From IMG/VR virus record IMGVR_UViG_3300025778_000077, positions 1 through 24,588 of that record: 24,588 bases of DNA; one strand, given 5' to 3'. The translations under genes were made by a program, and so were the position numbers. Origin of the DNA: a virus. Of the stretch, positions 343-24,198 are shown piece after piece. The notes below the pieces were generated by a model. The model saw only the letters and a program-made list of their open reading frames with translations, did no database searches and was not told where the DNA came from. Position 1 is the stretch's first letter; each line of letters opens with the position of its first letter.

Positions 343-543
343 ATGTTAACAACTAACGATCTATTTGAGCGTGAGCTCAAAAAACTTCTCGTAGCTGAAA
401 TTGAACGATTACAAGCTCTCATATCGGGGCCAAATATCAGCGACTATGCCCAATACAGGTATTACGTCGGTGCTATTCAGGGTCTTTTGGCTGCTATTGA
501 GCGGTGCGATGAGACTCGTTCTATTGTCGATCAAACACGCTAA
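343..543 (+). CDS. Small conserved phage protein of unknown function
   Basis: A 66-residue protein that is almost wholly helical by inspection: ELKKLLVAEIERLQ, then YAQYRYYVGAIQGLLAAIERC. It resembles the short proteins often found between portal and scaffold genes in podovirus-like phages, with a YxxxxGxIxGLL core, but no function is established that I know of. The start is the ATG at 343, preceded by GAGGA at 333-337. It ends at a TAA and the next gene begins 9 bases later, so it is probably translated from the same message as the co-chaperonin. A role in head assembly is only suggested by the neighbours. Confidence 0.75.
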   Translation: MLTTNDLFERELKKLLVAEIERLQALISGPNISDYAQYRYYVGAIQGLLAAIERCDETRSIVDQTR

Positions 544-552
544 GAGGGTAAA

Positions 553-960
553 ATGGCTTATATGATGAAACACGCGGTAGATCCGCGCGAAGAAATTTGG
601 AAGCAAGTAGGCGATCTGTCTAATTTTGAAGTCTTCCATAACAAAGTGCTTCTTGCGATTTACATCCGGCCTGAAATGACCGCCGGCGGTATTCTTATTA
701 CCAACAAAATCCGCGACGAAGACAAATGGCAAGGCAAAGTTGGCCTTGTTCTTAAAACCGGACCGTCTGCTTTTGTCGATGACGAAGGCAAATGGTTCAA
801 AGGAATGAACGTCAAGGTAAATGATTGGCTGTTTTGCCGGCCATCTGACGGATGGAATATGACATTGAACAATCGTGAAACGGGGGATGACATTTTATGT
901 CGCCTTATCGATGACACATATCTTCTTGGTCGTCTGTCCCACCCTGATGAAATCCATTAA
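553..960 (+). CDS. GroES-like (Cpn10) co-chaperonin
   Basis: This 135-residue protein matches the Cpn10 layout. An N-terminal extension of about 28 residues leads into a first strand (VFHNKVLLAIYI). Residues about 38-46 (MTAGGILIT) match the GroES mobile loop, whose GGI/L residues contact GroEL. Then come WQGKVGLVLKTGP (GroES: RGEVLAVGNG), a long roof-loop region (DDEGKWFKGMNVKVNDWLF; GroES: VKVGDIVIF) and a C-terminal strand pair (CRLIDDTYLLGRL). GroES is about 97 residues and T4 gp31 about 111, so this one is longer at both ends. Known phage co-chaperonins replace or modify GroES on host GroEL to fold the major capsid protein. Placement right before the scaffold gene fits the same role here, by inference. 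It is preceded by AGAGGG at 543-548. The two Met after the start (MAYMM) leave a small doubt about the exact start. Confidence 0.85.
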   Translation: MAYMMKHAVDPREEIWKQVGDLSNFEVFHNKVLLAIYIRPEMTAGGILITNKIRDEDKWQGKVGLVLKTGPSAFVDDEGKWFKGMNVKVNDWLFCRPSDGWNMTLNNRETGDDILCRLIDDTYLLGRLSHPDEIH

Positions 961-970
961 GGAATAAAAA

Positions 971-1876
971 ATGTCAGAAATTGACCCAAACATAGAAGAA
1001 AATGACGATATTGTTGTTGAATTGGCTGAAGATGAGCCAAAACAAGACGATATTGTTATAGAAAAAGCCGAAGAAGCCCCACAACCGGCTAAAAAGATGG
1101 AATTGTCGCCTGAAGACGGCATTAGTGAGTTGCAAGCAAAGCTTGAGCAGGAACGTCAGGCCCGTATTGAGGCCCAAAGACAAGCTCAAGAGGCTATGGA
1201 ACAGGCTAACCACGCCCAAAGTAAGGTTGATTCGACCGAATTGCACATGATTAAAAATGCAATTGATCAAGTCAAAAACAACAACGACATCTTAAAAGCT
1301 AATTATCGCGATGCTTTGGCAACTGGTGACTACGACCAAGCTGCTGAAATACAAGAGCAGATGATTATCAATCAATCCAAGCTTTCTACGCTTGAATCGG
1401 GCAGAAGGGCTAAAGAAGAGGCGCCTAAAGTGGCACCTATGTCTCCTAAACCTGTTGATTTGATTGAAAATCTTGCATCTCAGGTAACACCTGAATCGGC
1501 TCAATGGCTTCGTCAGAACAGGGATCAGCTTAATAACCCGAAAAAACTTGATCGGGCCATGAGAGCTCATGCCGACGCTTTGGATGATGGAATTGTTGCC
1601 GATACGCCGGAATATTTTCGTTTCATTGAAAACCGTTTGGGCATCCAACGCGATAATTATGAGGATACAGCCATGTCTGAAGCCGCCAAGCCTGTTGTAA
1701 GGCGCTCTTCCCCGCCAGCCGCCCCTGTTACCAGAAGCGGATCTGGAACTGGCGCAACTCGCCCAAATGTCGTTCGTTTAACATCAGCGGAACGCGAAAT
1801 GGCGTCCATGATGCAAATGACCGACCAAGAATATGCACGAAACAAAATCGCGTTACAGCGCGAAGGTAAACTTTAA
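971..1876 (+). CDS. Scaffolding-like protein
   Basis: A 301-residue, strongly charged protein with no globular enzyme signature. The N-terminus (1-45) is very acidic (ENDDIVVELAEDEP). Residues about 50-150 form a predicted long helix or coiled coil rich in Gln, Glu and Ala (ELQAKLEQERQARIEAQRQA). A middle section has SPESAQWLRQ-type helices, then a Ser/Pro/Gly linker (about 238-265), and it ends in a short helical tail (LTSAEREMASMMQM) with a basic end. An acidic, coiled, helical protein with a helix-rich C-terminal tail, lying between portal and capsid genes, is the usual scaffold pattern; the final helices of P22-type scaffolds bind coat protein. The sequence shows the architecture; function is inferred. 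AAGGAA precedes the ATG, 10 bases after the co-chaperonin stop. Confidence 0.7.
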   Translation: MSEIDPNIEENDDIVVELAEDEPKQDDIVIEKAEEAPQPAKKMELSPEDGISELQAKLEQERQARIEAQRQAQEAMEQANHAQSKVDSTELHMIKNAIDQVKNNNDILKANYRDALATGDYDQAAEIQEQMIINQSKLSTLESGRRAKEEAPKVAPMSPKPVDLIENLASQVTPESAQWLRQNRDQLNNPKKLDRAMRAHADALDDGIVADTPEYFRFIENRLGIQRDNYEDTAMSEAAKPVVRRSSPPAAPVTRSGSGTGATRPNVVRLTSAEREMASMMQMTDQEYARNKIALQREGKL

Positions 1877-1885
1877 GGAGCTAAT

Positions 1886-2497
1886 ATGGAACAAGATACA
1901 GCACCTGCCGGTCGTCGCGGCCGCAAAAGCGCATTATTTACCGAAAAACCAAAAGCAAAGGTTGAACCGGTAGTTTTGGCGGAAGAAGGAACCGAATCGG
2001 TTGAGTCGTCGCGTCAGGCCATGCGTCCTGATATGCGCGAAGAAAGTCCGTTGGCCCGTGCAGCTCGTCGTGCTGCCGAAATTAAGGGATCCGGCGGTTT
2101 AGAGTTTGATGGTACGGACGAATACTACATTGATCCCCGCATTATCCCAGAAGGTTGGTCTTATGAGTGGAAACGCGAAGCCGTTTACGGCCAAAGAGAC
2201 GACACTTACCAACAGTCTTTGAAGCAAAGCGGTTGGGAAGAAGTCCCTTATTCCCGTCACACTGATAAATTTCCAAAAGGCAAAGGAAATACAATTGAGC
2301 GCAAGGGAATGGTTTTGATGGAGCGTCCTGCGGTCATTACGGATGAAATGCGCCGTAAAGACAACATGAACGCTCGCAATGCCGTTGAATCCCGCAAGCA
2401 GACTGTAGATTCCACCAAGGGAATGTTGGGACGGGCGGATTCTTATGTAGCGCCTAAGATTAATCAGGGCTACGAGCCTATGGTTGCCCCTAAATAA
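1886..2497 (+). CDS. Conserved phage virion-associated protein, function unknown
   Basis: A 203-residue protein. The N-terminus is basic and low complexity (GRRGRKSALF), then a conserved-looking core: DEYYIDPRIIPEGWSYEWKR, a VYGQRD segment, a GWEEVPYSRH motif, and IERKGMVLMERPAVIT followed by a charged helix. I recognise this core as common in podovirus-like phages next to scaffold and capsid genes, but I know of no assigned function. A strong AAGGAG lies 6 bases before the ATG, 9 bases after the scaffold stop, so the two are one transcription unit, closed by the terminator at 2507. It could be a head completion, plug or internal protein. Confidence 0.75.
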   Translation: MEQDTAPAGRRGRKSALFTEKPKAKVEPVVLAEEGTESVESSRQAMRPDMREESPLARAARRAAEIKGSGGLEFDGTDEYYIDPRIIPEGWSYEWKREAVYGQRDDTYQQSLKQSGWEEVPYSRHTDKFPKGKGNTIERKGMVLMERPAVITDEMRRKDNMNARNAVESRKQTVDSTKGMLGRADSYVAPKINQGYEPMVAPK

Positions 2498-2651: not shown

Positions 2652-3305
2652 ATGGCCAATACTTTTGCGCCCAGCGGCTTTCTACAATATCAGGGTGGTG
2701 CAGGTGGCGCTCCGACGTTTGCCCAATCTGTCCGCCGTATTGCTGCTACTAACACGACCCCTATTTTCACTGGCGACCCAGTACAGCCTGTAACTTCCAC
2801 GGCTAACGGCTATATCACGCAAGCAACTGCTGGCGGATCCGTTCAGCTCGCAGGTATCTTTGTCGGCTGCAAATACTACTCGACCTCGCAAAAGCGCGTT
2901 GTTCCATCGGCTTACTGGCCTGGTTCGGACGCTACGGGCGACGTTGAAGCCTACATCATTGATGATCCAAACGCACGTTTCATCGTTCAGTCCTCTGGTT
3001 CTGGCTTCCCTGTAACGGGTACGGCTACGTCTCAGACGTCTGGCGTTCAGGGTCAGCTTGTTACGTTTGCTTACTCGACCACGGGTGCAACGTCCGGCAA
3101 CTCGACGGGTGGTAACAATGCAACGGGCCGTTCGACGGCTTATGTCAATGCTACCGCAACCACCAACACCTCGCCATTTATCATCGTTGATTATGCCGTT
3201 TCGTTCGGCAATGGCGGCGACCAAACCTCGCAGTACTGCAATTTGATTGTCGGCTTCAATAACGAAGTCTGGCGTTCGAACTCTGCTGTAACCGGCATCT
3301 CGTAA
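2652..3305 (+). CDS. Structural protein, candidate capsid decoration protein
   Basis: A 217-residue, Ser/Thr/Gly-rich, beta-predicted protein. It opens with MANTFAPSGFLQYQGG, then NTTPIFTGDPV and a GIFVGCKYY motif, followed by AYWPGSD and EAYIIDDPNARFIVQ. I recognise the MANT-APFGF start and the TxPIFTGDPV motif from conserved virion proteins just upstream of capsid genes in podovirus-like phages. Size, beta content and position one gene before the capsid gene suggest a head decoration or stabilisation protein, but this is inference. The ATG follows GAGAGGAGAACCCGTC. An upstream ATG at 2549 in another frame is rejected. It ends 13 bases before the capsid gene. Confidence 0.75.
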   Translation: MANTFAPSGFLQYQGGAGGAPTFAQSVRRIAATNTTPIFTGDPVQPVTSTANGYITQATAGGSVQLAGIFVGCKYYSTSQKRVVPSAYWPGSDATGDVEAYIIDDPNARFIVQSSGSGFPVTGTATSQTSGVQGQLVTFAYSTTGATSGNSTGGNNATGRSTAYVNATATTNTSPFIIVDYAVSFGNGGDQTSQYCNLIVGFNNEVWRSNSAVTGIS

Positions 3306-3318
3306 GGAGTGAAGTGTC

Positions 3319-4233
3319 ATGGCTGTTAATCTAAGTCAAATCAAAGACCTTCTCCTCCCCGGTCTCCGTGGTATTGAAGGCAAGTACGAGATGATCCCAT
3401 CTCAGTACGACAAAATCTTCACGAAGCACGATTCCAAGCTTTCCTTGGAACGTACCGCTGAACTTCGGTTCCTCGGTCTCGCGCAGCTCAAGACCGAAGG
3501 TGGCCAGACCGCTTTCGATTCGGGTGCTGGTGAGCGCTTTGTGTACAATCAGGAACACACTGAAATTGGCCTTGGCTATGCGATTACTCGTAAGGCTATT
3601 GACGATAACGTGTACAAGACGCAATTCCATCCATCGAACCTTGGTCTAGTGGAAGCTTTCCAGCAGACGAAGGAAATTTACGGCGCTTCGATTTTGAACA
3701 ACGCACAGACCTACAACAATGCTGTTGGCGGTGACGGTGTTGCTCTCTGCTCGACGTCGCATCCTATCGATGGTGGTTCGGTTGCCAACACGCCTACGGT
3801 TCAGGTTGATCTTAACGAAGCCACCTTGCTAAACGCAATGATTGCGATCCGCACGAACTTCCGCGATCAGGCTGGTTTGAAGGTGTTTGCTCGCGGTCGT
3901 AAGTTGATTGTTCCTCCGCAGCTTGAGCCTGTTGCAATCCGTCTCACGAAGACTGAATTGCGCCCAGGTACTGCAGATAACGACGTCAACGCATTGCTAA
4001 CCACTGCCGGCGGCTTGTCAGAAGGCTACATGGTCAACGACTTCTTGACCTCTTCGTATGCTTGGTTCTTGCTTACGAACATCGACGGCTTGTCGTATAT
4101 GGAGCGCGTTCGCTTCGAAACCGATATGCAAGTCGACTTCGTGACTGACAACCTACTCGTCAAGGGTTATGAGCGTTACTCGTTTGGTTACTACAACTGG
4201 CGCGCGATCTACGGCTCGTTCCCAACCTCGTAA
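3319..4233 (+). CDS. Major capsid protein, Mu gpT-like (HK97 fold)
   Basis: A 304-residue protein resembling the Mu gpT-like major head subunit family, which adopts the HK97 fold. Visible family features: LRGIEGKYEMIPSQYDKIF near the N-terminus, then a GGQTAFDSGAGERF / EIGLGYAITRKAIDDN section, and a C-terminal half with KLIVPPQLEP, a LRPGTADNDVN stretch, LLTNIDGLSYMERVRF and a final KGYERYSFGYYNWRAIYGS. It has no obvious cleaved N-terminal delta domain; the separate scaffold-like gene at 971 may serve instead. A near-perfect AAGGAG precedes the ATG by 10 bases, consistent with high expression. The unit is bracketed by terminators at 2507 and 5918. It is the likely client of the GroES-like protein at 553 (inference). 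Confidence 0.8.
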   Translation: MAVNLSQIKDLLLPGLRGIEGKYEMIPSQYDKIFTKHDSKLSLERTAELRFLGLAQLKTEGGQTAFDSGAGERFVYNQEHTEIGLGYAITRKAIDDNVYKTQFHPSNLGLVEAFQQTKEIYGASILNNAQTYNNAVGGDGVALCSTSHPIDGGSVANTPTVQVDLNEATLLNAMIAIRTNFRDQAGLKVFARGRKLIVPPQLEPVAIRLTKTELRPGTADNDVNALLTTAGGLSEGYMVNDFLTSSYAWFLLTNIDGLSYMERVRFETDMQVDFVTDNLLVKGYERYSFGYYNWRAIYGSFPTS

Positions 4234-8135: not shown

Positions 8136-8876
8136 ATGGCGTATGCGTCGACTTCGGGCAGAGCCAGAACAAGTATTAAAAACCCACAAGCGTTTGCTAT
8201 ATGCGACCGTTGCGGTTTTTTGTACAATCATGTCCAGCTCAAATGGCAGTTTGATTACGCCGGCGCCGGTTTAATCAATAAACGTATTTTGGTGTGCAAT
8301 CCTTGTTACGATACGCCACAAGCCCAATTGCGTTCAATTGTTATTCCGTCGGATCCTACACCAATCCAAAATCCTCGCGTTCAAGATTATTATGCGGCCG
8401 AAACAACGACGATTGCAGTGTCTCAGGGCGCACAAACGGATCCTTTGACGGGTATTCCAATATATCCAACGGTTAGTTTGATTAACCAAGACGGTTCTAC
8501 GCCGACAACTCAGCCAATAGGTCCGCCTACAGGCTTGGATCAGAACGCCGTACAACCACAATTCTTGTCGACCGCATACCGCGTGAACGTCAATCCAACT
8601 TCTGTTTTAGGAAACGGGACGAGCACGGTCACGGTTAATTGTTCATCGCCGCATGGTTTGTCTACTAATGCACAAGTTTCGGTTGAAGGGCTGTCTCAAA
8701 ATGCCGCTAACGGGATGTACAGCGTTACAGTAACCACCGCCACGCAATTCACTTATCAAACGAATAGTGCTATACCATCGGGTAATCTGCTTCAGGGTAC
8801 GACGCTCATTGTCACCGCTCTGGTAGGACTGCCTTATGGCTACACTCAGATACCATTAACTGGGCCGATAACATGA
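8136..8876 (+). CDS. Zinc-ribbon virion protein with a C-terminal beta module
   Basis: A 246-residue protein. Residues 22-58 hold two CxxC pairs (Cys23, Cys26, Cys54 and Cys57: ICDRCGF ... LVCNPCYD) spaced like a zinc ribbon, followed by a TPQAQLRSIVIPSDPTPIQN segment. I recognise CDRCGF...ILVCxxCYDTPQ...PxDPxPIxNPR as a conserved phage structural family of unknown role. The C-terminal part (about 157-215) is a beta module: TSTVTVNCSSPHGLSTNAQV, SVEGLSQNAANGMYSVTVTT. Its stop overlaps the fibre start by four bases (ATGA). It probably lies in the neck or at fibre attachment, inferred from position between adaptor and fibre genes. The start lacks a strong Shine-Dalgarno (only AGG). Confidence 0.75.
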   Translation: MAYASTSGRARTSIKNPQAFAICDRCGFLYNHVQLKWQFDYAGAGLINKRILVCNPCYDTPQAQLRSIVIPSDPTPIQNPRVQDYYAAETTTIAVSQGAQTDPLTGIPIYPTVSLINQDGSTPTTQPIGPPTGLDQNAVQPQFLSTAYRVNVNPTSVLGNGTSTVTVNCSSPHGLSTNAQVSVEGLSQNAANGMYSVTVTTATQFTYQTNSAIPSGNLLQGTTLIVTALVGLPYGYTQIPLTGPIT

Positions 8877-11800
8877 GCAACATTACCGTTACCAACCTCC
8901 CAGTTTTGACCTCTTTAAGCGGCACGGCACAGCTTATGGTTGTGCAAAACGGCGTGTCATCGAGCGCGACCGCACAACAGGTTGCCAATCTTAATGCAAA
9001 CGGCGGCACGGTAACGTCGATCACGGCGGCATCGCCACTGTCTGGTGGAACAATTACATCTACGGGTACAATTGGTCTCAACAGCAACAGCATCACAAAC
9101 AGCTATCTCAGCACGATGCCAGCGGGGACGATTAAGGGTAACAACTCTGGCAGCACGGCGCAGCCACAGGATCTTACTGCGGCGCAAGTATTGGCGCTCA
9201 TTGGAGGTGGCACGGTTTCCCTGATTAATACTGGGCAGGGATTGCAAGGTGGCCCGATTACAACCACTGGTTCTATTTCCATTGCAAATACAGGCGTTAC
9301 GGCAGGAACATATGGTTCCGCAACTGCTGTTCCTCAGATTGCAATTAACGCACAGGGACAGATAACGTCTGCTTCTCGCGTCAATATTTTGATTCCAACG
9401 AGTCAAATTACTGGCCTTGGAACGATGGCAACGCAGAATGCTAATGCCGTTGCTATTACGGGCGGAACGATTGATCAAACAACGATTGGTGGAACAACTG
9501 CTGCGGCGGGTACGTTTACCAATCTTACTGCCACTGGCACGGTTTCAATCGGCACTATTTCTTCCGGCACATGGCAAGGTACGCCTATTGCGGTTGCTTA
9601 CGGCGGCACGGGCGCTACATCGGCATCGGCTGCGCGTACTAACCTTTCTGCGGCGCAATCTGGCGCGAACAGCGACATTACATCCCTTTCCGGCTTAACC
9701 ACGCCATTGTCTGAAACTCAGGGCGGAACAGGCTATGGATCGTATACGACGGGTGACATTCTTTATGCTTCGTCATCTACCACCTTGGCCCGTCTTAATG
9801 ACGTGGCTACTGGCAATGCTCTTATTTCTGGAGGGGTCGGTGTTGCTCCGTCTTATGGTAAGATTGGCCTTACTACGCATGTAAGCGGCACATTACCTGT
9901 TGCCAATGGCGGTACGGGTGCAACCACACTGACAGGCTATCTTGTTGGTAACGGCACAAGTGCATTTACGGCTGTGTCTACAATTCCTAACGCCGGGTTA
10001 ACCAATTCATCCATTACGATTGGTTCAACGTCTATTGCTTTGGGCGCTTCAACGTCCACGTTGTCAGGTTTGACAACAGTAACGGTTACGCAAGACCCAA
10101 CCGCATCGTTGCAATTGTCCACCAAACAGTATGTTGATAACCAAGTTGCTACGGTTAGTAATACAACCTTCCATACGGCTTCTGCGGCGGCTACTACGGC
10201 CAACTTGACCGCCACTTATAACAACGGGACGGCGGGTGTTGGTGCTACGCTTACCAATAGTGGCGCACAAGCCGCTTTTGCCGTTGACGGTTATACCGCC
10301 TCATTAAATGACCGTATCCTTGTTAAAGACCAAACCACGGGCGCACAAAACGGTATTTACACCGTCACAACGCTTGGTTCTGGCTCAACCAACTGGGTGC
10401 TTACCCGTGCAACTGACTTTAACACGGTTGGCACTGGCCCTAATTTTATTGAGACGGGTGCTTCTACGTTTATTAACGGCGGCACGACATGGGGTTCAAC
10501 CTCATGGGTTATGAACACGACTGGCACGATTACGGTTGGTACAACGGCTCTTGTTTGGGTGCAGACATCTTCTTCCGGCAATATCACCGTATCCGCTCCA
10601 ATTACCAAGACGGGTAATACCATTGGTCTTGGCACGGTTGGCGTTGCAAACGGTGGAACTGGCCTGACTACGCTGACTGCGTATGGTTTGCTTTATGCCG
10701 CAAGCACGTCATCCGTGGGCCAGATATCGCCATCCACTTCAGGTTATCCGTTGCTATCCACGGGCGCTTCAACGGCCCCTGCGTTTGGTCAGTTGGCTCT
10801 TGGCGGCGCAGGTGTCACTGGCACACTGGGTGTTACAAATGGCGGTACAGGTACTTCAACGGCATTTACCACTGGCTCTGTCGTGTTTGCGGGTGCATCC
10901 GGCGTCTACAGCCAAAACAACGCCAAGTTCTTCTGGGATAACACCAATAACCGTTTGGGCGTTAACACGGCCACGCCACAGACGCAGTTGACGGTTGTTT
11001 CCAATACGCAAACAACCACGCCTTCTGCTGCTCTTCCAGCGGGTACTGACTTATATATTGTTGGCGCAAACGCCGCTAACACCCGTATTACGCAAGATGC
11101 TTATGGAACTGGCGCTTACGGTGCATATACGGTACGATCAGCCCGTGGTACGGCGGCTTCTCCAACGGCATCGCAATCAGGCGACTTCTTAGCGCAGTTT
11201 ACTGCCCGTGGTTATGGCGCAACTGGATTTGCTACAGCATCTACAGGTTATCTTGCGATTACTGCTGCTGAAAACTTCACGGATACGGCGCAAGGAACAT
11301 ACGCATCTATCTTTACGACTGCTACAGGCGGTAACTCTGCGACTGAAGCCTTCCGTTTTGGCCCTGCGGGTCAGTTAGGCATTGGTGGCGCTACATACGG
11401 CACGTCCGGTCAGTTCTTAACGTCTGGTGGCGCATCTGCCGCCCCATCGTGGACAACGGTTACGCTTGCAACCCTTGGCGGCGTGGTTCCTGTGGCCTCT
11501 GGCGGCACGAACATTACGTCCTACACAGTGGGCGATCTTTTGTACGCCTCCGCCTCCACAACGCTGTCCAAACTGGCTGACGTTGCTACCGGATCAGTCC
11601 TTGTGTCGGGTGGCGTTGGTGTCGCTCCTGCATGGTCTAATTCGCCTACCGTTACGGCTTTGACGACGGGCAGCATTAGCAATAGCGGTAACACGACCAA
11701 TACGGGTACGGGTTCGCGCTTCTTGGCTGACTTTACTAATGCCACGATTACGAACCGTCTGGCTTTCCAAACAAGCACGACCAACAGCACAACGGGCATT

Positions 11801-13102
11801 TATGCTCTGCCTAACGGCACATCCACGGCTGCTTCTTGGCAAGCGACCAATGCCGCTGATCCTACCAACGCATCCAAGATTTTGATTGCGACGAACGGTT
11901 CCACGGACGTTCAGTTGGTGTCTGGCATTAACGGCACGGGTACGTATTTGCCGCTTTCGTTCTACACAAACGGCTCTGGTCAGTTTGCCATTAATACGTC
12001 GGGCGCTTGGGGTATTGGCTCTGTTGCTGGGGCAACTGTAAATTATGGAACATCTGGTCAGGTGTTTACATCTGGTGGTTCTTCAGCACAGCCTTCTTGG
12101 TCAAATGTTAGCGGACTTGCCGTAACATCAATCAATTTTGGAACAACGGGTTTAACCCCGTCAACGGCAACGCAAGGTGCTGTAACGGTCGCCGGAACGC
12201 TTGTCGCAGCAAACGGCGGTACGGGACAATCTTCATATACAGTTGGTGATTTGCTTTATGCATCAACAACCACTGCATTGTCCAAATTAGCAGATGTTGC
12301 AACAGGCTCTGTTCTTGTTTCAGGTGGCGTTGGCGTTGCCCCTGCTTATTCCGCCACACCTACACTTACATCATTAACTGCTGCGGCCTATTACGGCGGC
12401 ACAGGAACTGGTTCAACGCTTACACTTCAGTCAACATCTGGCGTAGGTGCTACTGACAGCATTCTTATGAAGGTGGGCAATAACGGTGCTACCACAGCAT
12501 TGTCTATTGCATCAGGCGGTACGGTTACAATCGGTACACTTAACCTTACCAATGCCCTTGGAACTGCGTATGGCGGCACGGGCCTTACGGGATTTACCGC
12601 AGCCAATAATGCCATTTATTCCACATCTTCATCCGTATTAACGGCGGGTACGTTGCCCGTTTTGGCTGGCGGTACGGGCGTTACAACATCTACGGGAACG
12701 GGTTCTGTAGTTCTTTCTGCATCGCCAACATTTACCGGAACGCTTAATGCCGCTGCTATTACGGCTTCGGGTGCTATTACCGACTCCATTGGCAACGTCC
12801 GCACCATTGTACAAAACAGCCAGACGTCTGCTTATGTTCTTGTTGCAACGGACAACGGTAAATACATCTCCATCACAACAGGCGGTGTGACGGTTCCTGC
12901 ATCTATTTTCTCTGCGGGTCAAAACATTGTGATCTTCAACAACTCTGGTTCATCTCAGACCATTACACAGGGAACAAGCGTTACAATGACGTTGGCGGGT
13001 TCTGCCACAACAGGCAACCGCACATTAGCCCAATACGGTGTTGCAACGGTGCTTTGCACAGGCTCCAACACATTTGTCATTACAGGACAGGGGCTAACGT
13101 AA
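8873..13102 (+). CDS. Long tail fibre with GGTG repeats
   Basis: A 1409-residue fibre. The N-terminus (ITVTNLPVLTSLSGTAQLMV, VQNGVSSSATAQQVANL) resembles a virion-anchoring segment. Many NGGTG/YGGTG motifs follow, typical of phage tail fibres. A common inserted domain lies at about residues 409-570 (LSTKQYVDNQV; LNDRILVKDQTTGAQNGIYT; WVLTRATDFN), then a WDNTNNRLGVNTATP element (about 688) of the type seen at triple-helix junctions, tandem SYTVGDLLYAS repeats (residues 883 and 1121, an older copy at 290), and two YGTSGQ...TSGG modules. The C-terminal domain (TSAYVLVATDNGKYISITTG ... GNRTLAQYGVATVLCTG) is a likely receptor-binding tip. The start overlaps the previous stop (ATGA); its stop overlaps the next start (TAATG). 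It should bind the host surface. Confidence 0.85.
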   Translation: MSNITVTNLPVLTSLSGTAQLMVVQNGVSSSATAQQVANLNANGGTVTSITAASPLSGGTITSTGTIGLNSNSITNSYLSTMPAGTIKGNNSGSTAQPQDLTAAQVLALIGGGTVSLINTGQGLQGGPITTTGSISIANTGVTAGTYGSATAVPQIAINAQGQITSASRVNILIPTSQITGLGTMATQNANAVAITGGTIDQTTIGGTTAAAGTFTNLTATGTVSIGTISSGTWQGTPIAVAYGGTGATSASAARTNLSAAQSGANSDITSLSGLTTPLSETQGGTGYGSYTTGDILYASSSTTLARLNDVATGNALISGGVGVAPSYGKIGLTTHVSGTLPVANGGTGATTLTGYLVGNGTSAFTAVSTIPNAGLTNSSITIGSTSIALGASTSTLSGLTTVTVTQDPTASLQLSTKQYVDNQVATVSNTTFHTASAAATTANLTATYNNGTAGVGATLTNSGAQAAFAVDGYTASLNDRILVKDQTTGAQNGIYTVTTLGSGSTNWVLTRATDFNTVGTGPNFIETGASTFINGGTTWGSTSWVMNTTGTITVGTTALVWVQTSSSGNITVSAPITKTGNTIGLGTVGVANGGTGLTTLTAYGLLYAASTSSVGQISPSTSGYPLLSTGASTAPAFGQLALGGAGVTGTLGVTNGGTGTSTAFTTGSVVFAGASGVYSQNNAKFFWDNTNNRLGVNTATPQTQLTVVSNTQTTTPSAALPAGTDLYIVGANAANTRITQDAYGTGAYGAYTVRSARGTAASPTASQSGDFLAQFTARGYGATGFATASTGYLAITAAENFTDTAQGTYASIFTTATGGNSATEAFRFGPAGQLGIGGATYGTSGQFLTSGGASAAPSWTTVTLATLGGVVPVASGGTNITSYTVGDLLYASASTTLSKLADVATGSVLVSGGVGVAPAWSNSPTVTALTTGSISNSGNTTNTGTGSRFLADFTNATITNRLAFQTSTTNSTTGIYALPNGTSTAASWQATNAADPTNASKILIATNGSTDVQLVSGINGTGTYLPLSFYTNGSGQFAINTSGAWGIGSVAGATVNYGTSGQVFTSGGSSAQPSWSNVSGLAVTSINFGTTGLTPSTATQGAVTVAGTLVAANGGTGQSSYTVGDLLYASTTTALSKLADVATGSVLVSGGVGVAPAYSATPTLTSLTAAAYYGGTGTGSTLTLQSTSGVGATDSILMKVGNNGATTALSIASGGTVTIGTLNLTNALGTAYGGTGLTGFTAANNAIYSTSSSVLTAGTLPVLAGGTGVTTSTGTGSVVLSASPTFTGTLNAAAITASGAITDSIGNVRTIVQNSQTSAYVLVATDNGKYISITTGGVTVPASIFSAGQNIVIFNNSGSSQTITQGTSVTMTLAGSATTGNRTLAQYGVATVLCTGSNTFVITGQGLT
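9740..9853 (+). repeat. Fibre repeat, divergent copy 1
   Basis: It codes SYTTGDILYASSSTTLARLN plus a DVATGNALISGGVGVAPS ending, 38 codons from residue 290 of the fibre. It is the older relative of the copies at 11519 and 12233. Confidence 0.8.
11519..11632 (+). repeat. Fibre repeat, copy 2
   Basis: 38 codons from residue 883: SYTVGDLLYASASTTLSKLA followed by DVATGSVLVSGGVGVAPA. Compared with copy 3 it differs at only 3 residues but at 25 of the 35 codons coding an identical residue. Confidence 0.85.
12233..12346 (+). repeat. Fibre repeat, copy 3
   Basis: 38 codons from residue 1121: SYTVGDLLYASTTTALSKLA followed by DVATGSVLVSGGVGVAPA, spaced 714 bases from copy 2. The linked YGTSGQ module recurs at 11396 and 12044, 648 bases apart. 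Confidence 0.85.
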
Positions 13103-15594
13103 TGACTTCCGTTTCCCTCCTTCTTGGGTCGGTAGCCTCTGGTGTCGCTGCAACATATCTTGTTGTTGCGGGTGGCGGTGGCGCAGGTGGCGCACAACCA
13201 AATTATGTTGGTGGCGGCGGTGGTGGTGCAGGTGGATTATTAGCATCTTCAGTTATATTAAATGCAACAACCACTTATACCATTACCGTTGGCTCTGGCG
13301 GTGCGGGTATAATTAATTATGCTAATCCCGGCGGGAATGGAACAACTTCATCTATTGCAGGAACTGGTTTAACTACCATAACCACAGTCGGTGGCGGCGG
13401 CGGGGGTAGTTATGGTTGCAATGCCGTAACGGGTGGTTCTGGCGGTGGTGGTGGTAATAACAATCGTACAGGTGCCGCAGGTACTTCCGGCCAAGGTAAT
13501 TCCGGTGGCAATGGCGGGATTTACGCAGATAGCACTTCTTCCCAAGGCGCAGGTGGAGGCGGTGGTGCTGGCAGTACTGGCTCTAATTTTTCTGGAGTTA
13601 ATGGCGGCGCAGGTGGGGCGGGTACATCGTCATCAATTAGCGGTTCATCCGTAACATATGCCACGGGCGGCGGCGGTGGAGCATCTAACGGAACGGGGGG
13701 CGCAGGTGGTAGCAGTAACGTAAATGGCGGCGCGGGTGGTTCTGGTAATAGTGCAAACGGTAATAGTGCCACTGCAAATACTGGCGGTGGCGGTGGCGGT
13801 GCATCTTCTCAGTTAGGCGCAAGTGTTACAGGTGGTAATGGCGGTTCTGGTATTGTAATCATCAGTTACGCTGGTTCTCAACAATTTATTGGCGGCACAG
13901 TAACATCGTCCGGTGGTAATACAATTCATACGTTTACATCCTCAGGCACATTGGCTCCGGCTATTTCTACGTCATATCTTGTTGTCGCAGGTGGTGGTGG
14001 CGGCGGTTCAAATTATGGCGGTGGTGGTGGTGCTGGTGGCTATTTAACAAGCACTGCATATTTGTCACTTACGGTAGGAGCATCTTACACAGTTACTGTC
14101 GGAACGGGTGGTGCAGGTGGCCCCCCGCTTGGCAGTCAAGCCAACGGAACAAAAGGTAATGATTCATCATTAAGCGGAACCAGCTTAACCACCATAACCG
14201 CAACGGGCGGTGGTTTTGGTTCGCAGGGCGGCGGTGGCAGTGCTGGACCGGGCGGTTCTGGCGGTGGCGGTGGTGGCAATAACACAAATCCATGTTTTGG
14301 TGCAGGTACAGCAGGACAGGGTAATAACGGCGGTAACAACGGAGGCCAATACGGAGCAGGTGGTGGTGGTGGTGCATCTGCTGTTGGATCAAATGGACCT
14401 TCTGCTTCCAGTGGGGGTAATGGTGGTGCTGGTTCTTCATCTTCTATTTCTGGCTCTTCGGTAACATACGCAGGCGGCGGCGGTGGTGGCTGCGATACTG
14501 GAACGCCGGGTTCAGGTGGTTCTGGTGGCGGCGGTGCTGGCGGCAATGTTTCTGGTACGGGAAACGGAACAAGCGGTACTGCCAATACAGGCGGCGGTGG
14601 CGGTGGCGGTGGAACCGGATCAAGCCGCGCAGGTGGTACAGGTGGTTCCGGTATTGTAATCATCAGCTATGCTGGCTCACAAAAATTCACAGGCGGCACG
14701 GTCACATCATCCGGCGGCAATACAATCCATACGTTTACGTCATCTGGAACGCTAACTTACGGAACAATTTCAGCAAGTTATTTAATTGTTGCAGGTGGCG
14801 GCGGAGGTGGCGCGTCTGGTGTTGGATCGGGCGGCGGCGGGGGTGGTGGTGCAGGGGGATTTTTAAATAGCACAACCTATCTTGCTTCTGGAAAAACATA
14901 TACAGCAACTGTAGGCGGCGGTGGCAATGGCGCAGTTTTCCAAACATCTATTGCAACCGCTGGTGCAAATTCCGCTTTAACTTTAGGAGGTAGCGGTTTT
15001 ACCGCAATAGGTGGTGGTTTAGGCGCGGGTGACACTAATATCCCCGGCGGTTCAGGTGGCTCCGGCGGTGGTGGTACAGGTAACTATAATACCGCAGGTG
15101 GCTCTGGAACATCAGGGCAAGGTAATAACGGTGGCACATCTGTAGTAAGCAGTGGCGGCGGTCAAGGCGGCGGTGGAGGCGGTGGCGCATCTGCCGCAGG
15201 TGGCAATAGTGACAGTTCCGGTAACGCAGGTAGTGGTGGAGCAGGTTCTGCGTCATCTATCACAGGATCATCTGTAACTTATGCAGGTGGCGGCGGCGGA
15301 GGTATCCAAAATACTGGATCAGTTGGCTCCGGCGGGGCTGGTGGCGGTGGTGCTGGTGGTACAAAAAATAATGGTGGTACTGCTGGAACAACTAACTTAG
15401 GTGGAGGTGGTGGCGGTGCCGGTGGCGGTGCAAGTGCATCTCCGGCCAGTGGTGGCGCTGGTGGTTCTGGGGTTGTTATATTATCCGTTCCATCGGCCAA
15501 CTATACTGGAACAGTTACGGGTTCGCCAACTGTCACAACTTCTGGTAGTAACACAATTATTAAGTTCACATCTTCAGGGACGTATACAGCATGA
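13102..15594 (+). CDS. Glycine-rich adhesin with three tandem units
   Basis: An 830-residue protein built mostly of GGX-type repeats broken by short beta elements. The start is the ATG at 13102, overlapping the fibre stop (TAATG), with AGGGG upstream at about 13089; the in-frame ATG at 13054 lies inside the fibre gene and is less likely. Three units of about 265-275 residues each begin YLVVAGGGG or YLIVAGGGG. Units 1 and 2 end in GSGIVIISYAGSQ plus GGTVTSSGGNTIHTFTSSGT; unit 3 ends GSGVVILSVPS and a related tail. Phage glycine-rich adhesins such as S16 gp38 form stacked polyglycine-II helices whose exposed loops bind receptors; here this is inferred from composition. The N-terminal LLLGSVASGVAA looks like a signal peptide, but a virion protein is more likely. 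It probably binds or decorates the fibre. Confidence 0.8.
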   Translation: MTSVSLLLGSVASGVAATYLVVAGGGGAGGAQPNYVGGGGGGAGGLLASSVILNATTTYTITVGSGGAGIINYANPGGNGTTSSIAGTGLTTITTVGGGGGGSYGCNAVTGGSGGGGGNNNRTGAAGTSGQGNSGGNGGIYADSTSSQGAGGGGGAGSTGSNFSGVNGGAGGAGTSSSISGSSVTYATGGGGGASNGTGGAGGSSNVNGGAGGSGNSANGNSATANTGGGGGGASSQLGASVTGGNGGSGIVIISYAGSQQFIGGTVTSSGGNTIHTFTSSGTLAPAISTSYLVVAGGGGGGSNYGGGGGAGGYLTSTAYLSLTVGASYTVTVGTGGAGGPPLGSQANGTKGNDSSLSGTSLTTITATGGGFGSQGGGGSAGPGGSGGGGGGNNTNPCFGAGTAGQGNNGGNNGGQYGAGGGGGASAVGSNGPSASSGGNGGAGSSSSISGSSVTYAGGGGGGCDTGTPGSGGSGGGGAGGNVSGTGNGTSGTANTGGGGGGGGTGSSRAGGTGGSGIVIISYAGSQKFTGGTVTSSGGNTIHTFTSSGTLTYGTISASYLIVAGGGGGGASGVGSGGGGGGGAGGFLNSTTYLASGKTYTATVGGGGNGAVFQTSIATAGANSALTLGGSGFTAIGGGLGAGDTNIPGGSGGSGGGGTGNYNTAGGSGTSGQGNNGGTSVVSSGGGQGGGGGGGASAAGGNSDSSGNAGSGGAGSASSITGSSVTYAGGGGGGIQNTGSVGSGGAGGGGAGGTKNNGGTAGTTNLGGGGGGAGGGASASPASGGAGGSGVVILSVPSANYTGTVTGSPTVTTSGSNTIIKFTSSGTYTA
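13151..13970 (+). repeat. Glycine-rich unit 1
   Basis: It runs from TYLVVAGGGG through the GGTVTSSGGNTIHTFTSSGT block (13891-13950) to the start of unit 2. About 820 bases; limits approximate. Confidence 0.7.
13971..14774 (+). repeat. Glycine-rich unit 2
   Basis: It runs from SYLVVAGGGGGG through the second copy of the 20-residue ending (14692-14751), identical in protein to unit 1 but with 11 synonymous codon changes. About 804 bases; limits approximate. Confidence 0.7.
14775..15594 (+). repeat. Glycine-rich unit 3
   Basis: It starts SYLIVAGGGGGG and ends with a diverged version of the tail (SGSNTIIKFTSSGTYTA). About 820 bases; limits approximate. Confidence 0.7.
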
Positions 15595-16168: not shown

Positions 16169-17073
16169 GCACGACGACAACCAACCTTAGCTTAAACGAA
16201 CCGTCTTATAACCAGACATCGCCAACGTGGGACATTCCGCTCAATAGCAATACCACGATTCTTGACGCCGCCTTTGGTAATACAACCTCTGTTGCGCTTA
16301 CAAGCTCAAACGTCACGTTGACGGCAACGCAACTGCAGGTCATGCAGGTCAAGTTCACAGGCGCGATTTCGGCAAACATCATTATTACCATTCCCGCCAT
16401 CGGTGGCCGTTGGACCTTCACAAACGCAACTTCGGGCGCTTACACCGTAACCATCGCATCGGCGGGGGCAGGGACAAGCGTTGTGGCTCCGCAGGGCTAT
16501 AGCACCCTCATGTTATCGGATGGCACAAACATCGTCCTCGCAGACGGCGGCGTCATTTCCGGTGGTAACCTTGCAACGCTTAACGTGTCGGGCAACTCGG
16601 TTCTTGGCTCTACAGGGACAACGACTGCAAGCGTTGGTGGCAAGCTAACATTATCGGCAACGCCAAGCCAGTTATCTCTCGTCCTTCAAAACATCGCAGA
16701 AACGACAACAATCACAGCGGCAAGCGCGACTGGCACAATCAACTACGATATCACCACGCAGTCGGTTCTTTATTATACGGTTAACTCGTCGGCCAACTTC
16801 ACGCTCAATTTTAGGGCATCGAGTGGCACAACGCTTAATTCTGCTCTTGCAATTGGCCAAGCCGTAACGGTTGCTTTCCTGAACACAAACGGCACTACGG
16901 GTTATTACAATAACGCTATTACGATTGATGGTGCGTCCGTTACGCCTAAGTGGATCAATGGTTCGGCCCCAACAACAGGTTATGCCAACTCAATTGACAC
17001 CTACACCTACACAATCATCAAGACCGCTTCTGCAACTTATACCGTCCTCGCAACCCTCGCAAAGTTTGCATAA
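16165..17073 (+). CDS. Tail fibre-like protein
   Basis: A 302-residue, Thr/Ser/Ala/Asn-rich, beta-repetitive protein. The N-terminal segment NLSLNEPSYNQTSPTWDIPL / NSNTTILDAAFGNTT is a motif I recognise at the start of many phage fibre or short-tail-fibre proteins. It continues with TFTNATSGAYTVTIASAGAG and ends in a C-terminal domain (LNFRASSGTTLNSALAIGQA, VTVAFLNTNGTTGYYNNAIT, WINGSAPTTGYANSIDTYTY) typical of fibre tips. It starts on an ATGA overlap and stops on a TAATG overlap. It is probably a second receptor-binding fibre or a fibre tip, distinct from the 1409-residue one. Confidence 0.7.
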   Translation: MSTTTTNLSLNEPSYNQTSPTWDIPLNSNTTILDAAFGNTTSVALTSSNVTLTATQLQVMQVKFTGAISANIIITIPAIGGRWTFTNATSGAYTVTIASAGAGTSVVAPQGYSTLMLSDGTNIVLADGGVISGGNLATLNVSGNSVLGSTGTTTASVGGKLTLSATPSQLSLVLQNIAETTTITAASATGTINYDITTQSVLYYTVNSSANFTLNFRASSGTTLNSALAIGQAVTVAFLNTNGTTGYYNNAITIDGASVTPKWINGSAPTTGYANSIDTYTYTIIKTASATYTVLATLAKFA

Positions 17074-17795
17074 TGCCTACAATCGGAACAGCGGGTGCCG
17101 CATCAGCTAGGGCTTTTGGGTTTACGGGCGTTGCTACGTCAGGCAGCGTGACTGTCAACACGTCTGGATCTGGTACATTTACTGTTCCTGTTTACGCCAA
17201 TTCTATCCAATTCCAATTGTGGGGAGGCGGTGGCGGCGGGGCTGCGCCGGGCGGTGCAGGTGGTGGCTCGGGTGGTGGTGCAACAGGTGGCACTACATCT
17301 ATTACTGCAGCAAGCTATACATTGATTGCAACGGGCGGTGGCGGTGGATCTTCTGCAGGTGGAGACCGTAGTAACGGATCACCGGGCGGAGGTGGTTCAG
17401 GTTCAGGCGGGTCAACAAATCTTACGGGTAGCTCTGGAAGTTCCGGTTCTCGCGGACAAGGCGGTTCTGGTGGCGCAGGAGCAAATGGCGGAAACGGCGG
17501 CAGCGGTGGGACTATTCCCGGCGGCGGCTCACAAGCCATTTCAGGAAACCCCGGTTCGGCTCCTGCAGGTGGCGGAGGTGGAGCTGTGTTTGACGAAGAT
17601 ATCAATAACGGAGCTAAATCTTGGTCCACTGGCGGGGGTGGAGGTGGTGGTGGTTACACGTCTATTACTGCCACGCCTTCAACTGGTCCAAGCCCCGGTG
17701 CTGTTTTATCTTATACGGTCGGAGCCGGTGGGTCAGCAGGTGGCGGGTACAACGGTTCAGGTGCAAACGGTCGTTTAACCATAACGTGGTCGTAA
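17073..17795 (+). CDS. Second glycine-rich adhesin-like protein
   Basis: A 240-residue protein. The N-terminal part (TAGAASARAFGFTGVATSGS, VTVNTSGSGTFTVPVYANSI) leads to QFQLWGGGGGG and then dense GGX repeats to about residue 200, closing with LSYTVGAGGSAGGGYNGSGA and RLTITW. It is one copy of the kind of glycine-rich unit found three times in the 830-residue protein, with its own N-terminal strand region (residues 24-52). The FTVPVYANSIQFQLWGGGG pattern is typical of phage and bacterial glycine-rich domains. The start overlaps the previous stop (TAATG). It is presumably another extracellular, receptor-facing part of the tail. Confidence 0.75.
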   Translation: MPTIGTAGAASARAFGFTGVATSGSVTVNTSGSGTFTVPVYANSIQFQLWGGGGGGAAPGGAGGGSGGGATGGTTSITAASYTLIATGGGGGSSAGGDRSNGSPGGGGSGSGGSTNLTGSSGSSGSRGQGGSGGAGANGGNGGSGGTIPGGGSQAISGNPGSAPAGGGGGAVFDEDINNGAKSWSTGGGGGGGGYTSITATPSTGPSPGAVLSYTVGAGGSAGGGYNGSGANGRLTITWS

Positions 17796-23706: not shown

Positions 23707-24198
23707 ATGGCCGTTGAATTAAAAATCCGAATTGCTGTTCCAGATGATGTCCATGAAATCATGGACCTTGCATTGTCAGCTTGCGATGAAAACGGTTTTG
23801 TTGATCCTAATCCAAATAAACTTTTGGCCGAAATTTGGCCAGCTCTTCACCGTGAGCATGGATTAATTGGTGCAATTGGTGAGCCGGAAGGCCCGATTGA
23901 AGGTGTTGTTCTTTTGCGCGTTGGCGCAATGTGGTATTCTGACAGACCAGTTTTAGAAGAAAAAGCCATTTTTATTCATCCCGATTACCGTTCGGCCAAA
24001 GGTGGCAGGGCGCGTCAATTGTGTGAATTTAGTAAGAAGGTGGCCGATTCTTTGGGTATGCCGCTAATTATTGGTGTTTTGTCCAATCATCGTACTGAAG
24101 GCAAAATACGCCTTTACACTCGCCAATTTGGACCACCTAGCGGCGCTTTCTTTTTGTATGGCGCTCATACAGGCCAACATTCTATGACGGAGCACTGA
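23707..24198 (+). CDS. GNAT-family N-acetyltransferase
   Basis: A 163-residue protein of the GNAT fold: IRIAVPDDVHEIMDLALSAC at the start, IEGVVLLRVGAMWYSDRPVL in the beta core, and AIFIHPDYRSAKGGRARQLC (about 87-106), where the HPDYR..KGG.GR/A loop matches the acetyl-CoA pyrophosphate-binding motif A; then KVADSLGMPLIIGVLSNHRT and a C-terminal FGPPSGAFFLYGAHTG. It transfers an acetyl group from acetyl-CoA, but the target is unknown. It is 2 bases downstream of the previous gene and just before a large internal-protein gene, so it belongs to the late virion unit. It may modify virion or host proteins; not shown. Confidence 0.8.
   Translation: MAVELKIRIAVPDDVHEIMDLALSACDENGFVDPNPNKLLAEIWPALHREHGLIGAIGEPEGPIEGVVLLRVGAMWYSDRPVLEEKAIFIHPDYRSAKGGRARQLCEFSKKVADSLGMPLIIGVLSNHRTEGKIRLYTRQFGPPSGAFFLYGAHTGQHSMTEH

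Follow-up and report, generated by a model that had tools for sequence, protein, structure and literature searches.

The viral sequence IMGVR_UViG_3300025778_000077 of IMG/VR, analysed over its positions 1 to 24,588 (24,588 nucleotides, hereafter the window), carries at 553-960 a gene, cpn10, whose product is, by its profile matches, predicted fold and relatives, a divergent phage Cpn10 (co-chaperonin of the GroES type). The phage lineage to which it belongs is aquatic and widespread. It is most likely a further phage GroES within a capsid-folding strategy that is already known from T4 and related marine phages. The protein probably acts as a lid that lets host GroEL fold a phage head protein, with the Mu gpT-like major capsid protein encoded downstream as the likeliest client.

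Identification of the co-chaperonin gene

The open reading frame (ORF) starts with ATG, comprises 135 codons and is preceded by the purine-rich motif AAGAGGG. The next gene begins 10 bases past its stop codon. Alignments with relatives of 36-76% identity covered the whole length of the protein. Purifying selection was strong with a ratio of nonsynonymous to synonymous substitution rates (dN/dS) of approx. 0.1 against relatives of 65-76% protein identity with measurable dS (dN 0.14-0.28; dS 1.3-2.4); in one of the four pairs dS was saturated. On the basis of the full-length relatives and dN/dS, the ORF is a real gene.

The profile PHROG_3188 (co-chaperonin GroES) matched residues 24-109 with an E-value of 1.4e-7. 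Pfam Cpn10 (PF00166) gave 20.6 bits for the single window protein (E=4.5e-4) and thereby narrowly missed the cut-off of 21.1 bits; the score was 21.1 bits when the protein was searched with its frame. As a single sequence at the border of a profile is weak evidence, relatives were collected. From 68 viral loci, 37 proteins including the window Cpn10 were aligned, and at a threshold of E≤0.01 all 37 matched PHROG_3188 and 35 of them Pfam Cpn10 (best 7.4e-10). Proteins in the corresponding position of distant phages scored well over the Pfam cut-off.

Sequence searches of solved structures were weak or empty: phmmer with the single window protein found no family member, and the 37-sequence profile gave weak Cpn10 matches (E 0.1-0.6). 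The assignment was therefore decided by fold comparison. A single-chain AlphaFold2 model built from the 37-sequence alignment had a predicted local distance difference test score (pLDDT) of 83.9 and a predicted template modelling score (pTM) of 0.80. When it was compared with the PDB by Foldseek, ranks 1 to 13 were all taken by GroES/Cpn10 chains (E from 8.8e-6) and T4 gp31 followed on rank 15. A second structural aligner gave Z-scores of 7.1-9.7 for GroES/Cpn10 chains, including 8.0-8.8 for E. coli GroES from GroEL complexes and 7.6 for fitted coordinates. T4 gp31 reached 7.9-8.0 against the model, and GroES-like domains of alcohol dehydrogenases scored clearly lower (5.6 and below). The best matches in a viral structure library were predicted viral GroES proteins. 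With GroES/Cpn10 chains leading both structure searches, the predicted fold is the Cpn10 beta-barrel. The original prediction of a GroES-like product of 135 residues, made from the sequence alone, is thus borne out by PHROG_3188, by the Pfam-matching relatives and by this fold. A predicted fold other than Cpn10 had been named as a refuting outcome; the model did not show one.

Co-inheritance with the capsid family

The genes around cpn10 form a head block in the order portal, small ORF, Cpn10, phrog_28737 protein, two ORFs and gpT-like capsid protein, which is the head module of HTVC023P-type phages. The portal was found upstream in locus L001 (phrog_1216, E=1.4e-28), whose Cpn10 is identical in protein to that of the window. 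The place of cpn10 directly ahead of the gene at 971-1876, as described in the original prediction, was confirmed. In close relatives, Cpn10, the counterpart of the 971-1876 gene, two ORFs and the capsid gene invariably follow in that order, usually preceded by the small ORF.

A second set of loci was collected via the capsid protein alone, since collection by Cpn10 itself would bias the result. All 45 capsid-collected loci with at least 3.3 kb upstream contained a Cpn10 gene on the same strand, and its end lay 2.15-2.87 kb before the capsid start. The capsid family is shared by 22 annotated phages. Exactly one Cpn10 was found in each of the 14 annotated records that were searched whole, with capsid identity down to 24%, and six further phages of the 22 had one each by BLAST. 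Pelagibacter phages HTVC023P and HTVC027P, Roseobacter phage CRP-901, Planktothrix phage Pag-Yong1, Caulobacter phage GB2A and vir526 are among the phages of the capsid family with a Cpn10, and the association extended over 24-97% capsid identity. Among phages in general, Cpn10 is uncommon: BLAST with phage and E. coli Cpn10 queries returned 20 and 68 of 50,697 records, which is a lower bound on the background as gp31-type proteins escape BLAST.

BK063670 and MW202601 were suspected to be without Cpn10 because none is annotated near their capsid genes. This was rejected, as a search of the whole record found one in each. In BK063670.1 (vir526, L165), a record with an assigned Methanomicrobiales host, Cpn10 is located at 42883-43134 on the minus strand, upstream of the terminase gene (E=4.7e-11). 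In MW202601.1 it is located at 13798-14013 on the plus strand, far from the portal-capsid interval, so that the gene may sit outside the head block.

GroES is already annotated in many relatives of the window phage. The protein gp089c of Caulobacter phage GB2A (L080:5146-5577), annotated as hypothetical protein, is also a Cpn10 (Pfam 3.5e-9, PHROG_3188 1e-10). The Rhizobiales contigs L073 and L074 (8001-8351), each larger than 200 kb, contain the same Cpn10 and head block, apparently as prophages, alongside the GroES genes of their hosts.

Anatomy of the predicted protein

Residues 1-97 of E. coli GroES were paired with residues 21-130 of the window Cpn10 in the structural alignment. Compared to E. 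coli GroES, the protein is extended by approx. 20 residues N-terminally and 5 C-terminally and has approx. 13 additional internal residues, the latter comprising approx. 4 past the mobile-loop tripeptide, 2 in the roof segment and the 6-residue hairpin RETGDD. The protein had been described as longer than GroES at both ends, which the structural alignment bears out only in part, with approx. 13 of the extra residues lying internally. The N-terminal extension, previously given as approx. 28 residues, has to be corrected to approx. 20, since GroES residue 1 pairs with model residue 21.

The mobile loop proposed earlier (MTAGGILIT) contains the glycine and hydrophobic tripeptide of Cpn10 mobile loops and was well conserved among 41 distinct capsid-collected relatives. 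Gly46 was present in 41/41, position 47 was Ile in 39/41 and Leu in the remainder, and position 49 was Leu, Ile or Phe in 41/41. The pLDDT was 74 for residues 41-50 and fell to its lowest value of 54 for residues 51-60, which fits a mobile loop. The motif DEDKWQGK past the loop was invariant in the first set of relatives. This invariance was discounted as partly artefact because DEDKWQGK itself had served as search pattern for that set; among the capsid-collected relatives the motif loosens to roughly [DE]-E-D-[KR]-[YWF]-Q-[GS]-K. In sequence alignments, the roof segment showed no deletion in comparison with M. tuberculosis Cpn10 or E. coli GroES, and Trp101 was aligned with Tyr71 of GroES.

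In the N-terminal extension, Met5 and His7 (each 40/41), Asp10 (37/41), Pro11 (36/41) and Gly20 (41/41) were conserved, and residues 11-30 were modelled confidently with a pLDDT of approx. 92. Judging by clade conservation and model confidence, the extension is not loose sequence. The Cpn10 of Alcaligenes phage QDWS535 is without it and those of DSL-LC04 and HTVC023P have different N-terminal extensions of approx. 40 residues. As the extension is not universal, the action of a Cpn10 as such cannot depend on it.

Comparison with known co-chaperonins

The Cpn10s of HTVC023P-type phages (HTVC023P gp36, CRP-901 gp61, Pag-Yong1 and DSL-LC04) belong to the same family, share the placement between portal and phrog_28737 protein as well as the capsid family, and have no Cpn60 either. 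They differ from the window Cpn10 by their low identity of 21-25%, by N-terminal extensions of other length and by the absence of DEDKWQGK. GroES is one of 13 core genes in HTVC023P-type pelagiphages (PMC9599517) and is drawn on the genomes of CRP-901-type phages (PMC10149686). The protein annotated as co-chaperonin groeS in MW202675.1 (Manatee Spring phage) belongs to the same clade and shares 50% identity, the N-terminal extension and the block order with the window. It is without RETGDD, and its record is a complete genome of 61 kb, whereas the window is a fragment.

E. coli GroES and the window Cpn10 have the fold, the mobile loop G-G-I-x-[LI], the roof segment and an aromatic residue at the Tyr71/Trp101 position in common, although identity is only approx. 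15-22% and the window protein adds the N-terminal helix and the internal residues. Unlike E. coli groES, cpn10 has no adjoining groEL partner gene. Many phages reportedly have a Cpn10 with or without a Cpn60, a finding credited to the work of Marine et al. 2017 (ISME J) on virioplankton chaperonins.

T4 gp31 and CocO of RB49 are likewise phage proteins of Cpn10 fold with a loop region longer than that of GroES and a capsid protein as presumed client. Since gp31 was badly placed by MAFFT, the comparison is based on structural alignment, with 8-10% identity, and on published work. The mobile loop of gp31 has 22 residues versus 16 (PMC6318259), and that of the window Cpn10 is similarly lengthened past the tripeptide. 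In contrast, gp31 is without roof loops (PMC6318259), and the wider cage that comes with their loss is not indicated for the window Cpn10, whose roof segment is retained. The 6 kb examined around T4 gene 31 contain no annotated head genes, while cpn10 lies within the head block. Folding of the T4 capsid protein gp23 requires gp31 and GroEL, and GroES is no substitute (PMC3012670). With approx. 56 kDa, gp23 reportedly exceeds by a small margin what the GroEL-GroES cage can hold (PMC6318259). T-even homologues of gp31 of comparable size favour their own gp23 (PMC3012670), which fits a subtler specificity of the lid.

Proposed function and alternatives

Going by family knowledge, the phage Cpn10 would form a seven-membered ring and replace host GroES as lid on host GroEL, onto which it would dock through the G-G-I-L-I mobile loop. 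Most likely, the phage lid would then enable host GroEL to fold a head protein that infected cells produce in great excess, and the likeliest client is the gpT-like major capsid protein. Ring formation, GroEL binding and the client are proposed by analogy. A link of the phage's own cap to capsid assembly, as drawn in the original prediction, is strongly supported by the co-inheritance with the capsid protein in 45/45 loci and 14/14 records, and the strictness of this co-inheritance with a single capsid family points to a capsid service like that of gp31. The use of host GroEL is consistent with the absence of any detected Cpn60 from the window and 27 related records (14 annotated phage records and 13 large viral contigs), in a search for which 14/14 control genomes were positive.

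Several points weigh against this proposal. Co-inheritance implicates the head block as a whole and not the capsid protein specifically, and in the distant relatives BK063670 and MW202601 Cpn10 is found away from the portal-capsid interval. Model confidence is low over the mobile loop. Finally, the capsid protein of 33.7 kDa is well below gp23 in mass, and its size does not explain a special lid. Given this mass and the kept roof segment, the reasoning of a bigger cage in T4 is not directly transferable: the analogy with gp31 is supported by co-inheritance for the capsid-folding service, whereas an enlarged cage is not its evident reason. A lid of its own is more likely explained by client-specific features of the lid, or by the plain provision of lids while capsid protein is overproduced, than by a larger cage. 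It is conceivable, if rather doubtful, that this capsid lineage has in Cpn10 an obligate partner dedicated to a capsid protein that would fit the ordinary GroEL-GroES cage, and that specificity arises from the lid itself instead of a bigger cage. The conserved N-terminal helix (M-x-H-x-x-D-P...G-D) and the C-terminal PDxxW would then either hold adjacent subunits together or contact the capsid protein, by which the lid would select its client.

Cpn10 might also be a working GroEL lid for another phage client (the phrog_28737 protein, the portal or tail parts), or might raise the Cpn10 dose or keep GroEL working. Inheritance of the head block as a unit, the separate position of Cpn10 in BK063670 and MW202601, and the fact that an ordinary cage should accommodate a protein of 33.7 kDa are in favour of this explanation. 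It is nevertheless unlikely, as Cpn10 is tied to the head block and to one capsid family over 24-97% identity, and gp31, the best-studied phage Cpn10, serves the capsid protein. A direct action of the Cpn10 fold in head assembly, as scaffold-associated or virion protein and independent of GroEL, would agree with the gene's nearly constant location inside this block as well as with the N-terminal helix and C-terminal PDxxW, which are conserved in the clade and absent from GroES. It is highly improbable, however, because the loop G-[IL]-x-[LI] is nearly always kept, and so it is in most of the distant relatives, which would be unexpected if GroEL were not bound. That the partner is a phage Cpn60 encoded outside the window can practically be dismissed: the window is a 24.6 kb fragment and some phages do carry both Cpn10 and Cpn60 (PMC7185714), but neither the circular genome MW202675 (61,219 bases), the nearest complete relative, nor any of 26 other related records yielded a Cpn60, with all controls positive.

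Features and neighbouring genes

The features of cpn10 and of the head block are compiled in Table 1. The match of the 971-1876 product to phrog_28737 had an E-value of 2.7e-6, compared to 5.4e-55 and 8e-63 for the HTVC023P and DSL-LC04 proteins, and a scaffold role of this product is plausible. The window capsid protein is 40% identical to that of HTVC023P, and its profile matched solved chains of major capsid proteins and Mu GpT domains.

Table 1. Coordinates of cpn10, its sequence elements and the surrounding head genes in the window.
Feature	Position	Strand	Basis
cpn10, groES-like co-chaperonin gene, 135 residues	553..960	+	PHROG_3188 and Pfam Cpn10 profiles, AlphaFold2 fold, dN/dS
N-terminal extension, residues 1-20, modelled helix 11-19; conserved M5, H7, D10, P11, G20	553..612	+	structural alignment, conservation, pLDDT
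Mobile loop MTAGGILIT, residues 42-50, predicted GroEL-binding element	676..702	+	conservation, lowered model confidence
Clade signature DEDKWQGK, residues 55-62, directly past the loop; stretch ~4 residues longer than in E. coli GroES	715..738	+	alignments
Roof segment PSAFVDDEGKWFKGMN, residues 71-86, kept, ~2 residues longer than in E. coli GroES	763..810	+	alignments to M. tuberculosis Cpn10 and E. coli GroES
Insertion RETGDD (6 residues), residues 108-113, nearest relatives only	874..891	+	missing from 37/41 distinct relatives
C-terminal extra, residues 131-135	943..957	+	structural alignment; C-terminus of relatives P-D-x-[VI]-W
Small ORF ahead of cpn10, kept in close relatives	343..543	+	tblastn synteny
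Acidic, Glu/Lys/Ala/Gln-rich protein, orthologue of phrog_28737 proteins of HTVC023P and DSL-LC04	971..1876	+	profile, composition
Head-block ORF	1886..2497	+	synteny
Head-block ORF directly ahead of the capsid gene	2652..3305	+	synteny; 32-37% identity to HTVC023P, CRP-901 and DSL-LC04 counterparts
Major capsid protein, Mu gpT-like, 304 residues, 33.7 kDa	3319..4233	+	phrog_371 major head protein, E=1.8e-10

The window begins inside an ORF of 612 residues (L001 3862-5700), of which the ORF of 80 residues at 10-252 is the 3' end; the complete protein matched no PHROG family. Long, repetitive ORFs rich in Ser, Thr and Gly at 8873-13102, 13054-15594 and 17073-17795, the latter two extremely glycine-rich, probably encode tail-fibre or appendage proteins. 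An ORF of 163 residues at 23707-24198 resembles GNAT-type acetyltransferases by eye, and GNAT genes are on record for QDWS535 and CRP-901-type phages as well.

Significance

The window adds a pattern to the known strategy: Cpn10 was never missing where the capsid family could be checked, in freshwater, marine, cyanobacterial, Caulobacter- and Rhizobiales-associated relatives. Its constant presence despite the small capsid protein speaks against explaining phage lids in general by cage size. Proteins annotated as hypothetical at the position of Cpn10, such as gp089c of GB2A, become nameable. With one lid and one capsid protein of 34 kDa, the phage offers a compact system for testing the basis of client specificity.
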